From NCBI GenBank assembly GCA_024508935.1, contig JANINW010000037.1, forward strand, positions 1 to 64,000: a stretch of 64,000 nt of DNA, written 5' to 3'. Below are positions 12,108-26,032 of the stretch, one piece after another. The notes beneath the pieces were generated by a model. That model was not told the DNA's origin. It worked only from the letters and a program-made list of their open reading frames with translations, and made no database searches. How positions within the stretch are numbered: position 1 is the stretch's first letter; each line of letters opens with the position of its first letter. The DNA comes from Flavipsychrobacter sp. GTDB lineage: Bacteria > Bacteroidota > Bacteroidia > Chitinophagales > Chitinophagaceae. The position numbers and the translations under genes are program-made.

Positions 12108-14519
12108 CTATTTTGTGAAGAAACGGGCCAGGAAGCCTTTCTTGTGTTTCTTTTTCTTTTGGTCTTCGTAATAACCGTACCCGTAGGCATAGCCATAACC
12201 GTAGCCACTGCTGCCATAGCCATATCCGTATTTCTTCAGGAATTCAACACCGTTGAAGATAATGGCCGGGTTCTGGATCTTGCCGTCTTTATGCAGGATA
12301 TCGAACATTTTTACCTGGTCTTTTACAGTATAAGACTGGCGTATCACAAACAGGTTGATGCCGGAGTATTGCGACAGGATAAGAGCGTCTGAAACCAGGC
12401 CTATCGGCGCAGTGTCTATTATCACTACATCAAACATATCCTGCAGTTCATTTATCAGCTCCTTTGTCTTTGAAAGCACCAGCAATTCACCGGGGTTGGG
12501 TGGTATAGGGCCGCAGTTGGCTATATACAGGTTTTCGTGTATGCCCGATGCTTTTATAACGGTGTCCAGCCCGCCCAGCCCTGCCAGGTAGCCGCTGATA
12601 CCGCCTTCGTTAGGAATGCCTAAGTATTGCGATATTTTAGGTTTCCTCAGGTCAAATTCCATGATGATGACACGCTTTTTGGCCAATGTCATGGTTATAC
12701 CCAGGTTGATGGATATAAACGATTTACCCTCACCGCTGGAGCTCGAGGTGATCATGAACACACGGTTGTTGTGTGCGGCCGACATAAACTCCAGGTTGGC
12801 ACGTATCAGCCTGAACTGCTCTGCAACACCGGTGCGTATATGCGGACCAACCACTATGGTATTCTCTCTTTCCCCGGCATCTTCCACCTTGCTGATAGAG
12901 CCTATAACAGGTATGGTGGTCAATGATTCTATATCATTTTCGTTGATCACTTTATTATTCAGCAGTTCGCGCATTACCACTACAGAACCCGGTATCATAA
13001 GCCCCAGCAGGAACATAATGGCATAGATATTCTTAGGTATGGGGCTGATTGGCGCACCTGATGCAAACGGCACTACAATGATCTTCGATTTGTTGGTAGC
13101 CGAAGAAACAGATATTTCATTTTCTACATCTTTCTGGTACAGCAACAGGTATATGCTTTGCAGCACGTTATAGTTCCTGTTCACATCCTTCATATTACGG
13201 CTCACTTCCGGTGTGCTGCGTATGCGGCTGGTATATTCAGATGCATTCTTGGCTGCATTTGAAAGGCGAATTGAAAGGGAACGGTCTACTTTGTCTATCG
13301 CATCCAGTATCCTTCTTTTCAGTGCATTCAGTTCGTTTTCCGATTCTAACAATATAGGGTTTGACGGGCCTGTGTTTCTGGCCAGTTCATCCCTGCGCTG
13401 TACACCGGTATTGTACTGTGCTATTAGTTGCGCCAGGTATGGATCGTCGGCCCCCACGCCTGCTATTACCTGGTTGCGGCTACCACTGCTATATACGCTG
13501 TTTTTCAGGCTGCTAAGGGCCTGCTTTTGCACATACAGCCCGTTCATGGCATTTTCAGAGGTGGTTTTTTCTGCCATGAATGTAGAGGTCTGGGTGGTCA
13601 CATCTACAATGTCATTGTTCAGTTGTATATCTACTGTCAATGAGTCCATTGTTTTTAGCTCCTGCATCATAGAAGCTTTTTTCTCCCTGATGAATTCGCG
13701 CGTTTTTTGCGCCGTCAGGTTGATGTTCTCCAGTTCTTTCTTCTGGTAGAAATGTACCAGCACATTCATAAAGTCAAGTCCGCGCTGCGGTACATTGTCT
13801 GTATACACAAGGTCCAGCAGGCTGGTACGGCCGTCGTTCAGGTTTACCCTGAATGCACCGAGAATATTCTTTATGGTTATTTCCTCGTGTTCGATATGTA
13901 CGATGAATTCGGTCTCCGGCAAATAACCCCTGTTTACTTTAGGGCCGGAGCGGTACAGTATTTTAAAGCGTCCGTATGGCCTTTTTATCCAGGTATCATA
14001 CAGTACGCGTTCAGTTATCTTGCCTTCTTTCAGTTCAAACTGGCCTTCCACCACCTGCTTTACAGATATCTCTATCGCATCTGCCTTAAACCCGCTGGTA
14101 TCAAAGGCTATCATGATAGGGCATTCCGTATATACTTCTGTTTTTTTGATGCGCCCTATAGCCCAGTAGCGTATGTTCATGGTCAGTGAATCTACTACAC
14201 GGGCAATAAGGTCCTGCGATTGGAGGATGACCTTTTCGTTAAAAAGATTTACCTGCGATTTATCATTTTCAGGCTCCAGTTTACTCAATACCGATTTAGC
14301 TACGTTGTTCTGGTTCTCGTCTATCAGTATAGAGCTTTTTATCTCATACTTGGGGGTGGTATAGCGCAGGTACAGGAAACCGGTAGTGAGCGTAATAGAA
14401 AGTGCCAGCACAAACCAGTACCAGTTGCTCAGCAAAGCACCCATTAATCGCTTGAAGTCGAATGATGAGTTGAATTGCTTCAACAGCTTTTCCGAGAATT
14501 GTTGTTGGTTCTGTTCCAT
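12108..14519 (-). CDS. wzc: polysaccharide biosynthesis tyrosine autokinase (Wzc-like BY-kinase)
   Basis: 803 aa; Wzz domain, Walker A SSSSGEGKSFISIN, A' VIIMEFDLRKPK, B FDVVIIDTAPIG, C-terminal tyrosine cluster GYGYGSSGYGYGYAYGYGYY. Confidence 0.93.
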   Translation of the reverse strand: MEQNQQQFSEKLLKQFNSSFDFKRLMGALLSNWYWFVLALSITLTTGFLYLRYTTPKYEIKSSILIDENQNNVAKSVLSKLEPENDKSQVNLFNEKVILQSQDLIARVVDSLTMNIRYWAIGRIKKTEVYTECPIMIAFDTSGFKADAIEISVKQVVEGQFELKEGKITERVLYDTWIKRPYGRFKILYRSGPKVNRGYLPETEFIVHIEHEEITIKNILGAFRVNLNDGRTSLLDLVYTDNVPQRGLDFMNVLVHFYQKKELENINLTAQKTREFIREKKASMMQELKTMDSLTVDIQLNNDIVDVTTQTSTFMAEKTTSENAMNGLYVQKQALSSLKNSVYSSGSRNQVIAGVGADDPYLAQLIAQYNTGVQRRDELARNTGPSNPILLESENELNALKRRILDAIDKVDRSLSIRLSNAAKNASEYTSRIRSTPEVSRNMKDVNRNYNVLQSIYLLLYQKDVENEISVSSATNKSKIIVVPFASGAPISPIPKNIYAIMFLLGLMIPGSVVVMRELLNNKVINENDIESLTTIPVIGSISKVEDAGERENTIVVGPHIRTGVAEQFRLIRANLEFMSAAHNNRVFMITSSSSGEGKSFISINLGITMTLAKKRVIIMEFDLRKPKISQYLGIPNEGGISGYLAGLGGLDTVIKASGIHENLYIANCGPIPPNPGELLVLSKTKELINELQDMFDVVIIDTAPIGLVSDALILSQYSGINLFVIRQSYTVKDQVKMFDILHKDGKIQNPAIIFNGVEFLKKYGYGYGSSGYGYGYAYGYGYYEDQKKKKHKKGFLARFFTK

Positions 14520-14540: not shown

Positions 14541-15362
14541 CTATTTGCTTATTTGTACGATACCGTATACAGCCAGGGCCGTAGACAATAAAGTGGTAAA
14601 TGTTGGCAGGTAGAAACGCAGGAAATCGTTCGATTCCTGGCGACGTATACGCGCCGGTTCTACATACACTATATCGTTTTGTTTTAAATAATAATAAGGG
14701 CTGTTAAATACATTCCTGCTGTTCAGGTTCAGGCGCGCATATTCACGTTTGCCTTCTGTTTCGCGTATCACCAGCACATTTTCTTTGCGGCCGGTAATAG
14801 GAATATCGCCGGCAGCTGCCAGTGCGTCTATAATGCTCAGTTTTTGGTTGGGAGCTACAACTGTACCGGGGTGGGCTACTTCACCAATGATGGTTACACG
14901 GTAATTGATGATGCGTGCTTCCACAACAGGTTCCTTCACATAGGCTTTCAGCTTATCGGCCAGCAATTCTTTTATCTGGCGCAGTGTAAGGCCGGAAACT
15001 TTTAGTTTGCCAACAACCGGGTAGTCTATAAAACCATTGGCATCAACCAGGAAGCCGTTGTTTTGTGCGGTGGGTGCGCCGCCGCCTGCCGATGAAGCAA
15101 TATTGAATGCGGTACCGCCGTCATTGAAAATGGCTACAGGATTAGCCCCGCTTTTATCAAGTATGCTGCTGATGGTAGATACTTTTATGGCAAGTATATC
15201 TTCAGGAAGCACGGTTGTTTCCTTGCGGCGCTCGATCTCATCCACCTGAACAGAAGGGTTCAGCGGGCTGTTATCGGCAAAGTAAATCGTCTTTTGAGGC
15301 GCCTTGCAGGAGGCTGCCAGTAAAAGAGTAGCTACAATGATGTGATAATAATACCGGCGCAT
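14541..15362 (-). CDS. wza: polysaccharide biosynthesis/export outer-membrane lipoprotein (Wza-like, SLBB)
   Basis: 273 aa; lipobox LLLAASCKAP; GFIDYPVVGKLKVSGLTLRQIKELLADKLK Poly_export and SLBB motifs. Confidence 0.92.
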   Translation of the reverse strand: MRRYYYHIIVATLLLAASCKAPQKTIYFADNSPLNPSVQVDEIERRKETTVLPEDILAIKVSTISSILDKSGANPVAIFNDGGTAFNIASSAGGGAPTAQNNGFLVDANGFIDYPVVGKLKVSGLTLRQIKELLADKLKAYVKEPVVEARIINYRVTIIGEVAHPGTVVAPNQKLSIIDALAAAGDIPITGRKENVLVIRETEGKREYARLNLNSRNVFNSPYYYLKQNDIVYVEPARIRRQESNDFLRFYLPTFTTLLSTALAVYGIVQISK

Positions 15363-15510
15363 AACTGATATGTTTACATGGATTTGTAAATCGCTTTTCC
15401 AATAAAATCTTAATCGGGTAAAATGCAGGAATTAAAAGGTTCCTGACCTTCTCTTGGCATCTGCTATATGTTTGAAAAGCGTATGGCACTATATGTTGAA
15501 AAACCCGGAT

Positions 15511-15642
15511 TTATCCACAGGAGTGAAACCCTTGTCGTTCTTAGCATTGTCTTATATTAAGACCATGCAAAATACTTTGCGCCGCTTAGAATATAAACAG
15601 TTGTGGATAACTTATACACAGCATATCAACAGGTTATCCACA
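15511..15642. promoter_or_regulatory. cluster of four DnaA boxes (candidate oriC / DnaA-binding region)
   Basis: TTATCCACA 15511-15519 (+), TGTGGATAA 15602-15610 (= TTATCCACA on -), TTATACACA 15612-15620 (+), TTATCCACA 15634-15642 (+); all match TTATNCACA and lie in intergenic DNA. Confidence 0.65.
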
Positions 15643-15676
15643 TGAGTATTAAGAGCTTATTCATTCTACCAGTGTT

Positions 15677-15684
15677 CAAAGGTA
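15677..15684 (-). promoter_or_regulatory. Bacteroidota-type -7 promoter element (TACCTTTG), possible promoter for EPS operon leader
   Basis: CAAAGGTA on + = TACCTTTG on -, matching TAnnTTTG; no clear -33 TTG. Confidence 0.3.
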
Positions 15685-15752
15685 TAATGCATGCATAAAG
15701 AGCGGTGTTACCCGTATGTTAGTGTGTCGTTATCCCGTTGTTAAACGGGCTT

Positions 15753-16430
15753 TTACGGTGCCAGGCGGGCTTTTTCCCAGGTATTTCCCGGGTTCATTTT
15801 AAAACGGATACGGTCGTGCATACGGCTGCTGCGGCCCTGCCAGAATTCAATTTCAGCAGGCAGCAACCTGTAGCCTCCCCAATGAGGAGGGCGGGGAATA
15901 TTGCCGTCAAATTCTTTATCGTACTTAATATAGTTCTCGTAAAGTATGCTGCGGTCGGCTATTACCGTGCTTTGCGGAGATGCCCAGGCGCCTAAGCGGC
16001 TGCCTTGTGGCCTTGATTGGAAATAGGCATCGCTTTCTTCCGCTGTTACTTTCTCAATGATACCTTCTACGCGCACCTGGCGTTCCAGCTCACCCCAGAA
16101 AAATACCAATGCCGCATGCGGGTTATCATCAATATTATGACCTTTAGCGCTCGTATAATTGGTGAAAAAGACAAAGCCTTTATCGTCCAGCCCTTTCAGC
16201 AGTACAATGCGGGCATGTGGTTTGCCGTAGGCATCTACGGTAGCCAGCGTCATGGCGTTTACCTCGTTCACCTGGGCTTCTTCAGCCTCGGAGAACCATT
16301 TGTGGAAAAACAACAAAGGATCATCACCGGTGTGAGACTCGTCAAGAGCCGCCAGTTGATAATCCTTACGTATATCTGCAATATTTTTAGCCGGAACAGG
16401 CAAGGTATTATTGCTTTTTGCTTCCACCAA
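15753..16430 (-). CDS. pdxH: pyridoxamine 5'-phosphate oxidase
   Basis: 225 aa; NAMTLATVDAYGKPHARIVLLKG, FFTNYTSAKGHNIDDNPHAAL, SRLGAWASPQS, RLLPAEIEFWQGRSSRMHDR. Start is TTG (16430) or GTG (16427). Confidence 0.95.
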   Translation of the reverse strand: MVEAKSNNTLPVPAKNIADIRKDYQLAALDESHTGDDPLLFFHKWFSEAEEAQVNEVNAMTLATVDAYGKPHARIVLLKGLDDKGFVFFTNYTSAKGHNIDDNPHAALVFFWGELERQVRVEGIIEKVTAEESDAYFQSRPQGSRLGAWASPQSTVIADRSILYENYIKYDKEFDGNIPRPPHWGGYRLLPAEIEFWQGRSSRMHDRIRFKMNPGNTWEKARLAP

Positions 16431-23506: not shown

Positions 23507-26032
23507 ATGGATCATAACGGGCAAAGGCCGGATATGGAGCAATTGCGCCAATGGTGCAATGGAGTATGGCTGGTTAATTATAACAGCCACATGCCGGTTG
23601 AAGAGCTGGTTATAGATACACGTAAAATAGCACAGGCCGAGCAGGCGCTGTTCATAGCACTTAAAACCGAGCGCCGGGACGGCCATACTTTTATACAGGA
23701 TGCTTATGAAAAAGGTGTCCGTAATTTTTTAGTGGATGAAGATGTAGAGACGGGCCTGTTTCCTGCCAGCAATTTTATACTCACTACCGATAATACAAAT
23801 GCCCTGCAGCAGATAGCAGCGGGTTATAGAAAACTGTTCCATATACCGGTGATAGGTGTTACGGGCAGTAATGGTAAAACAGTAGTGAAGGAATGGCTGT
23901 ATCAACTGCTCTCCGAAGATTATAATTCGGTACGCAGCCCCAAGAGCTATAATTCGCAAATAGGCGTGCCGCTTTCTGTATGGCTGCTGGAGCAGGAAAC
24001 GGAACTGGGTATATTTGAAGCAGGTATATCGCAGCCCAATGAGATGGCCAGGCTGGAACGCATTATACAGCCCACCATAGGGGTATTTACCAATATTGGG
24101 GAAGCGCATAGTGAAGGCTTTATGAACATCCGGCAGAAGGTGAATGAAAAGTTGGTGCTGTTTCGCTATGCCCGGCAACTGGTATATTGCAAAGATTACC
24201 CCGAACTGAACCAGTGCATGGCACAATATGTGAACAATGTGCGGAATGCAGACGGAACGGGGCAGTTGCAATTATTTACCTGGTCGCAAAAAACAGATGC
24301 TGACCTGCAGATAACCGATATAAAAAAAGACCGCTATAAGGCAGTGATAGAAGGGGTTTATAATGGTAGCAATATAAGTATCACTATACCATTCTCCGAT
24401 CCTGCATCTATTGAAAATGCCATACACTGCTGGTGCGTGATGCTATTGCTGAGCATACCGCAGCAGCAGATAGCAGAACGGATGCTGACGCTGGTGCCGG
24501 TATCTATGCGCCTGGAACTGAGGCATGGCATAAACGACTGTACGATAATTAATGATACTTATAATTCAGACCTTACCTCTTTACTGATAGCGTTGGACTA
24601 CCTCGATCAGCAAAAGCAGCACCAGAAGCATACGCTGATACTGAGTGATATGCTGCAGATAGCCAAGCCGGATGGCGAATTGTACGAGGAGGTAGCAGAA
24701 CTGGTAAGCCGCCGCGGTATACAGCGCATCATAGGTATAGGGCCGGCCTTGTTTAAGAATAAAGCTGCCTTCAGGCAATACAAAAAGCTGCGCAGCATAT
24801 TCTTCAAGACCACGGCAGATTTCCTAAAACAGTATCACCTCATCACCTTTGAAAATGAGGCTATATTGCTGAAAGGTGCGCGTACGTTCCGTTTTGAAAA
24901 GATCAGCAGCCTGCTGGAACAGAAAGTACACCAGACAGTGCTTTCCATCAATCTTTCATCACTGACACATAACCTGAACGTATTTCGTAAAACAGTAGGA
25001 CCAAAGGTGAAGATAATGGCCATGGTCAAAGCCTTCTCTTATGGCGCCGGCAGCTACGAAATAGCCCACTTGCTGCAATACTCGGGTGTAGATTATTTAT
25101 CGGTAGCGTATACCGATGAAGGTATTGCTTTGCGCAAGGCAGGTATTACTATGCCCATTATGGTGATGAGCCCCGATGCAGCATCGTTTGACCGTATGAT
25201 AGCCTGGAAGCTGGAACCGGAGATATTCAATATCCAGTCCTTCCACAGGTTTACTGAAATAGCCAATACACTGCATGTGTATGAATACCCTGTGCATATC
25301 AAATTAGACACAGGCATGCACCGGCTGGGCTTTATGCCGCATGAAATAGATGCACTGGTGCAGGAACTGGAAAACAACCCGTATGTAAAAGTGGCCAGCA
25401 TATTCAGCCACCTTGCTGCCAGCGAAGATCCGCTGCAGGATGGTTTTACAGAGCACCAGCACAAAGTATTTGAAGAAGTAAGTACCCGGCTGATGCAGCA
25501 ATTGCATTACAAGCCGCTCAGGCATATCTGTAATTCGGCAGCTATAGCGCGCCATCCTGAGCTACATTATGATATGGTACGTTTGGGCCTGGGCCTGTAT
25601 GGTATAGACAGCAGTAAATCGCTTACCTCAGAATTGCGGCAGATAGGCACACTTAAAACCGTAATAGCACAAATAAAAACCATTCCTGCCGGTGAAACAG
25701 TAGGCTACAACCGCATGGGCCATGCTGATAAAGAAATGCGCATAGCTACTATCTGCATAGGCTATGCAGATGGCTATCCACGCGCATTGGGCAATGGTAA
25801 AGCGCATGTGCTCATCCATAACAAACCTGCTAAGCTGATAGGCATAGTATGCATGGATATGTGCATGGTAGATATTTCCGATATTCCTGAAGCACAGGAA
25901 GGCGATGAAGTAATTGTTTTCAGTCCACAATTGCCGGTAGGGCAGTTAGCATCATGGTCGGGCACTATCCCATACGAGATCATGACCGGTATATCGCAGC
26001 GCGTAAAACGGGTGTACGAAAACGAAGTATAG
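23507..26032 (+). CDS. murF-alr: bifunctional UDP-N-acetylmuramoyl-tripeptide--D-alanyl-D-alanine ligase / alanine racemase
   Basis: 841 aa; MurF ATP-binding VIGVTGSNGKTVVKEWL; Alr PLP motif MVKAFSYGAGSYEIA and C-terminal GYNRMGHADKEMRIATICIGYADGYPR. Confidence 0.95.
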   Translation: MDHNGQRPDMEQLRQWCNGVWLVNYNSHMPVEELVIDTRKIAQAEQALFIALKTERRDGHTFIQDAYEKGVRNFLVDEDVETGLFPASNFILTTDNTNALQQIAAGYRKLFHIPVIGVTGSNGKTVVKEWLYQLLSEDYNSVRSPKSYNSQIGVPLSVWLLEQETELGIFEAGISQPNEMARLERIIQPTIGVFTNIGEAHSEGFMNIRQKVNEKLVLFRYARQLVYCKDYPELNQCMAQYVNNVRNADGTGQLQLFTWSQKTDADLQITDIKKDRYKAVIEGVYNGSNISITIPFSDPASIENAIHCWCVMLLLSIPQQQIAERMLTLVPVSMRLELRHGINDCTIINDTYNSDLTSLLIALDYLDQQKQHQKHTLILSDMLQIAKPDGELYEEVAELVSRRGIQRIIGIGPALFKNKAAFRQYKKLRSIFFKTTADFLKQYHLITFENEAILLKGARTFRFEKISSLLEQKVHQTVLSINLSSLTHNLNVFRKTVGPKVKIMAMVKAFSYGAGSYEIAHLLQYSGVDYLSVAYTDEGIALRKAGITMPIMVMSPDAASFDRMIAWKLEPEIFNIQSFHRFTEIANTLHVYEYPVHIKLDTGMHRLGFMPHEIDALVQELENNPYVKVASIFSHLAASEDPLQDGFTEHQHKVFEEVSTRLMQQLHYKPLRHICNSAAIARHPELHYDMVRLGLGLYGIDSSKSLTSELRQIGTLKTVIAQIKTIPAGETVGYNRMGHADKEMRIATICIGYADGYPRALGNGKAHVLIHNKPAKLIGIVCMDMCMVDISDIPEAQEGDEVIVFSPQLPVGQLASWSGTIPYEIMTGISQRVKRVYENEV

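Follow-up and report, generated by a model that had tools for sequence, protein, structure and literature searches.

The site described here lies in a 390-bp intergenic region (15363-15752), whose length had been given correctly in the first-pass annotation. In the following, the window denotes the whole stretch of DNA that was analysed (64,000 nucleotides), and genomes are referred to by G numbers, this genome being G000. The region and its neighbouring genes are as follows.

12108 to 14519, minus strand: Wzz/Wzc-like chain-length protein, gene 2 of the operon (Pfam Wzz)
14541 to 15362, minus strand: wza-like polysaccharide export protein, gene 1 of the operon (Pfam Poly_export, SLBB_2)
15363 to 15752, no strand: 390-bp intergenic region between wza and pdxH, ahead of the EPS export operon
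15753 to 16430, minus strand: pdxH, the upstream neighbour, with its 3' end towards the site (Pfam PNPOx_N, PNP_phzG_C)

The wza-like and Wzz/Wzc-like genes are followed, likewise on the minus strand, by genes for an ABC transporter and for glycosyltransferases. The earlier description of genes running away from the site holds for wza, but no genes diverge here, and pdxH, which is also on the minus strand, runs towards the site. Since the region has the 3' end of pdxH on one side and the start of wza on the other, it is the upstream region of the EPS operon rather than a divergent intergenic region. Elsewhere in the window, a single long open reading frame (23507-26032) resembles, by eye, a MurF-alanine racemase fusion.

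Four matches to the DnaA-box consensus TTATNCACA had been reported in the region, and all four are present, at 15511 (+), 15602 (-), 15612 (+) and 15634 (+). The other matches in the window are exactly the three listed at the same time (9871, 17998 and 56026), which gives seven observed against 4.33 expected from shuffling. The statement that four boxes in 132 bp are not due to chance also stands: among 200 Markov simulations of the window, none placed more than two boxes within 132 bp, and the expected number of such four-box clusters per genome is about 8e-6. The draft genome (3.76 Mb, 98 contigs) contains 194 matches to TTATNCACA; its sole direct pair of perfect boxes at most 31 bp apart is at the wza-pdxH site, as is one of its two head-to-head pairs at most 30 bp apart.

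The reported list of boxes was, however, incomplete, since two diverged boxes at 15591 and 15623 had been missed. When these are included, the site contains a regular array of five likely DnaA boxes, whose starts on the plus strand are at 0, 11, 21, 32 and 43 (a pitch of 11/10/11/11 bp) and whose orientations are + - + + +. The individual boxes, together with one that lies outside the conserved unit, are listed below; "copies" refers to the 13 copies of the array, namely those in 12 genomes of the genus and in G287.

15511 to 15519, plus strand: DnaA box outside the conserved unit, TTATCCACA, found in this genome only
15591 to 15599, plus strand: B1, diverged DnaA box, ATATAAACA, which is TTATAAACA in most relatives
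15602 to 15610, minus strand: B2, the anchor DnaA box, TTATCCACA (the plus strand reads TGTGGATAA), invariant in 13/13 copies
15612 to 15620, plus strand: B3, DnaA box, TTATACACA, which is TTATNMACA in relatives
15623 to 15631, plus strand: B4, diverged DnaA box, ATATCAACA, mostly WWWTNAACA across copies
15634 to 15642, plus strand: B5, DnaA box, TTATCCACA, WWRTNMACA across copies

On the plus strand, the conserved unit reads TGCAAAATAC, 15 bp, and then B1 to B5 in order. Its internal spacing is rigid; for example, the 11-bp pitch at B4 is retained in all 13 copies, and B2 is a perfect consensus DnaA box in each of them. Several of the other boxes are of the form TTATNAACA, which departs from the TTATNCACA consensus. 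In addition, comparison by eye with the E. coli IHF consensus gives a fit at TATCAACAGGTTA (15624-15636), a possible IHF site of the kind that accompanies the DnaA boxes of datA. Note that a TTATCAACA box with TTA 11 bp further on yields this match by itself.

The exact head-to-head core pattern occurs in this genome and in 5 of 14 relatives of the same genus, and is absent from 46 genomes of other genera. Direct reading of the pdxH/wza neighbourhoods extends this considerably: the array lies between pdxH and wza in 12 of the 15 genomes of the genus, including this one. It is present in every genome of the genus that has a pdxH-adjacent wza at least 67% identical, and is missing from G003, whose wza is 48% identical, and from G001 and G013, which have no such wza at that place. 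A scan of 397 genomes of the family with a longer pattern found one array outside the genus, in G287, again between pdxH and wza; this copy scores 55.7 bits with a profile built from the 12 copies. The same profile gave no further copies in the loci taken from named genomes, including three with a wza 58-65% identical near pdxH. The range of the array is narrow. Within the intergenic region, conservation peaks on the array: when the 12 regions are aligned, identity across six lineages reaches 0.83-0.88 within the unit, as against 0.38-0.70 over most of the rest. The first-pass annotation had proposed conservation of the boxes next to wza and pdxH in relatives as a check on the site. Three of its four boxes belong to the array kept in these 12 genomes, but the fourth, at 15511, is conserved in no relative.

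The array also has a conserved place with respect to two sequence elements on the wza strand.

15677 to 15684, minus strand: canonical Bacteroidota -7 element, TACCTTTG (consensus TANNTTTG), the putative promoter of the wza operon
15566 to 15575, minus strand: conserved GTATTTTGCA, one base short of the canonical -7 box

The -7 promoter consensus of Bacteroidota underlies TANNTTTG. In each of the 13 copies, the wza strand has exactly one TANNTTTG element, and its position is conserved: it precedes the anchor box by 60-62 bp, or by 74 bp in this genome, so that the spacing between the -7 box and the array varies somewhat. On the other side, GTATTTTGC follows in 13/13 copies, at a distance of exactly 35 bp from where the anchor box starts. 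The order on the wza strand is therefore the same throughout, namely TANNTTTG, array, GTATTTTGC, leader and wza, and in every copy the conserved DnaA boxes occupy a conserved position with respect to a promoter predicted from the consensus. At 15700-15752, a short conserved GTTAT...GTTAA (plus strand) is found, which lies upstream of the -7 box in relatives; it may possibly represent an activator site or the -33 region.

The presence of two -7-like elements raises the question of which of them would be used. Across 490 upstream regions drawn from four genomes of the genus, TANNTTTG occurs 183 times on the coding strand and 110 times on the opposite strand, an enrichment that the form one base short does not share (51 against 63). 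We therefore rejected GTATTTTGCA as a canonical -7 box, and because the canonical form is enriched and the short form is not, the array is placed at about +30 to +80 of the predicted transcript, followed by the rest of the leader. These counts also bear on a reading in which DnaA activates wza. A second promoter would then have GTATTTTGCA as its -7 element, and the anchor box, about 35 bp farther upstream, would resemble a class II activator site. The spacing of 35 bp, exact in every copy, and the invariance of GTATTTTGC speak for such an arrangement, and the leader structure discussed below could start at GTATTTTGCA. Nevertheless, we consider activation fairly unlikely, in view of both the counts for the two forms and the canonical -7 form on the other side of the array.

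Another possibility is that some unrelated regulator controls the EPS operon with the array as its operator, which would then only resemble a set of DnaA boxes. B2 and B3 together form a near-palindrome, TGTGGATAACTTATNCACA, some of the boxes are TTATNAACA, and both the narrow range and the tight link to wza would suit a local regulator. However, the palindrome is imperfect in G004, G006, G007, G009, G012 and G014, all of which keep the five-box pitch. Since half of the relatives break the palindrome and yet keep the pitch, a palindrome-binding protein other than DnaA is disfavoured, and the perfect consensus box at B2 in all copies also argues for DnaA. We regard the operator as quite unlikely.

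The first-pass annotation had listed the cluster primarily as a candidate oriC. The array has features in favour of this: a cluster of boxes with an AT-rich flank and a pitch like that of oriC. Moreover, the neighbourhood of dnaA, which we rejected as the origin, contains no TTATNCACA in the 3.5 kb around the gene. The GC skew of relatives, whose minimum lying elsewhere the first-pass annotation had itself named as a refutation of oriC, gives a different picture. In G004, a complete relative that matches CP075895 (Chitinophagaceae bacterium LGM1; 3,322,193 bp), 20-kb samples taken around the chromosome place the skew maximum at 1.72-1.87 Mb; the minimum, near 0-0.3 Mb in the same samples, narrows on finer reading to a zone of about -13 to 200 kb. 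At 2.669 Mb, the orthologous site falls in the middle of a chromosome arm, with 0.65-0.85 Mb between it and the minimum and 0.8-0.95 Mb between it and the maximum. Within the 400 kb that have the site at their centre, the skew is positive in G008 and negative in G002, where the orientation is opposite, apart from one near-zero block of the opposite sign in each; thus, no sign switch occurs within 200 kb on either side. In this genome, the skew of the contig is positive from about 20 kb on. Because only 15.5 kb of the contig lies to the left of the site, the conclusion that this genome does not have its origin here rests on synteny with the relatives.

A second AT-rich array, located downstream of pdxJ, provides further evidence on this point. 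It reads TTTAACAGTTTATCCACA in G004, G006 and G007 and is present in a diverged form in this genome (contig 18), and its DnaA boxes, about 10-11 bp apart, are conserved in these four genomes. The loci are as follows.

G000, contig C18, about 221080-221200: pdxJ-side array (L251)
G004, contig C1, 175834-175968: pdxJ-side array (L172)
L170 and L171: the two further pdxJ-side array loci

The pdxJ-side array is within the minimum zone of G004 and at the skew sign change in G006; in G007, it is about 180 kb off the local skew minimum, in a region with rearrangements. It is a better, though unproven, candidate for the oriC of the genus than the wza-pdxH site. With the skew minimum of G004 elsewhere, the skew unswitched at the site in G002 and G008, and this other conserved array at the sign change of G006 and in the minimum zone of G004, the oriC interpretation of the wza-pdxH array fails, and we consider it highly improbable that the array is the chromosomal origin. 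The case carries a general caution, because the strongest cluster of DnaA boxes in a genome is not necessarily its oriC, which is a trap for origin predictors that count boxes. Other box clusters were compared and found not to be the same element (upstream of a pheT-like gene in G013; on C3 and C18 here; on C8 in G007; and on C43 in G003). That in G013 (L142, G013:C2:749738-749787) is a three-box DnaA cluster seen in this one relative.

The mid-arm position would, on the other hand, suit a locus for DnaA titration or recharging (datA-like or DARS-like) that acts on replication timing rather than on wza, and the site is indeed the strongest cluster of perfect boxes in the genome. Against this, the array occurs in every case together with wza and is missing wherever that wza is missing, and the order and spacing of its boxes are unlike those of both E. 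coli DARS cores. Titration or recharging as the main role is thus unlikely.

The reading that we put forward, with a confidence about evenly balanced, is that the site is not an origin but a conserved regulatory array for DnaA, situated close to the promoter in the leader of the wza (EPS export) operon, where DnaA would repress or road-block transcription. The first-pass annotation had mentioned a DnaA-regulated site linked to EPS expression as its alternative; at the level of sequence, this suggestion is backed by the conservation of the array and by its geometry relative to the canonical promoter element of the operon. The proposed mechanism is as follows. Transcription of wza would start just downstream of the TANNTTTG box, near 15671. 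The strong and invariant B2 would nucleate DnaA, which could then spread as an oligomer over the four weaker boxes, at a pitch of about 11 bp, to cover roughly +30 to +80 and hinder RNA polymerase from leaving the promoter. EPS expression might thereby track the amount or the nucleotide state of free DnaA, and hence the replication status. The sequences themselves show the array with its pitch and conservation, its position with respect to the -7 box and, in relatives, its location in mid-arm; we infer DnaA as the bound protein, use of the promoter, and repression as the sign of the effect. The varying distance between -7 box and array, the boxes that depart from the consensus and the narrow range weigh against this reading. 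The DnaA of this genome has normal N-terminal, AAA+ and helix-turn-helix domains, and in E. coli, a box occupied by DnaA can halt RNA polymerase.

The leader itself (15363-15560, minus strand) may also contribute. Several relatives have hairpins at one place in it, with differing sequences (GAGGTGATTAACCTC, GAGATCAGGGATCTC and CAATCAACAGATTG), and the corresponding element in this genome is as follows.

15436 to 15450, minus strand: possible leader hairpin AAGGT-CAGGA-ACCTT, suggestive only

Possibly, this is a structured 5' leader or an attenuator. Scored genome by genome, the hairpins reach P < 0.05 in no genome other than G000, G004, G006 and G012, so the RNA structure of the leader is only suggested. 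The hairpins were rejected as clean intrinsic terminators because, by eye, the T-run is not consistent, and no known RNA family in Rfam matches the leader at E up to 0.5.

More broadly, and more tentatively, this Bacteroidota lineage may tie polysaccharide export to replication through a DnaA oligomer on an origin-like array in the leader, possibly with the hairpins, and the array may also buffer free DnaA in mid-chromosome. If this is true, an origin-like array before an EPS operon would provide a direct and testable link from replication to surface polysaccharide. DnaA sites in Bacteroidota are very sparsely covered in the paper library that was searched, and the papers it gave for DnaA boxes together with exopolysaccharide do not, judging by titles and abstracts, concern a connection between the two. 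As a separate observation on polysaccharide loci, a second NusG-like protein is encoded in this genome (L252, G000:C6:451350-451634) about 9 kb from another wza-like gene (G000:C6:442028); it may serve a second polysaccharide locus as an antiterminator of the UpxY type.

In some respects, the array resembles known DnaA systems. In the low-affinity arrays of E. coli oriC, DnaA boxes have an 11-bp pitch (2-bp gaps). The wza-pdxH array is similar in that one strong box is accompanied by weaker ones about 11 bp apart and by an AT-rich flank; unlike those arrays, it lies off the skew minimum in the relatives tested. Its resemblance to E. coli DARS1 and DARS2 consists of a short box cluster, one box opposed to the others, and a mid-arm place. 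A DARS core has three boxes, with box I opposed to boxes II and III (PMC5742627), and, in agreement with this, both cores as read from NC_000913 have the orientations + - - and starts at 0/14/26. We rejected the array as a DARS core, since its orientations are + - + + + and its starts 0/11/21/32/43.

As a regulator, DnaA is documented as both an activator and a repressor of transcription in other bacteria (PMC8203912). The E. coli dnaA and nrdAB promoters likewise have a few DnaA boxes of mixed strength next to the promoter (PMC8203912), whereas here the boxes belong to an EPS operon in Bacteroidota, are five in number and regular, and probably lie downstream of the transcription start. For the E. 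coli his operon, attenuation of transcription has been proposed to involve DnaA boxes in the leader, which are followed by stem-loops, as they may be here (PMC10989985). In contrast to what is proposed for the wza array, the his boxes would act in RNA together with the ribosome and tRNA.
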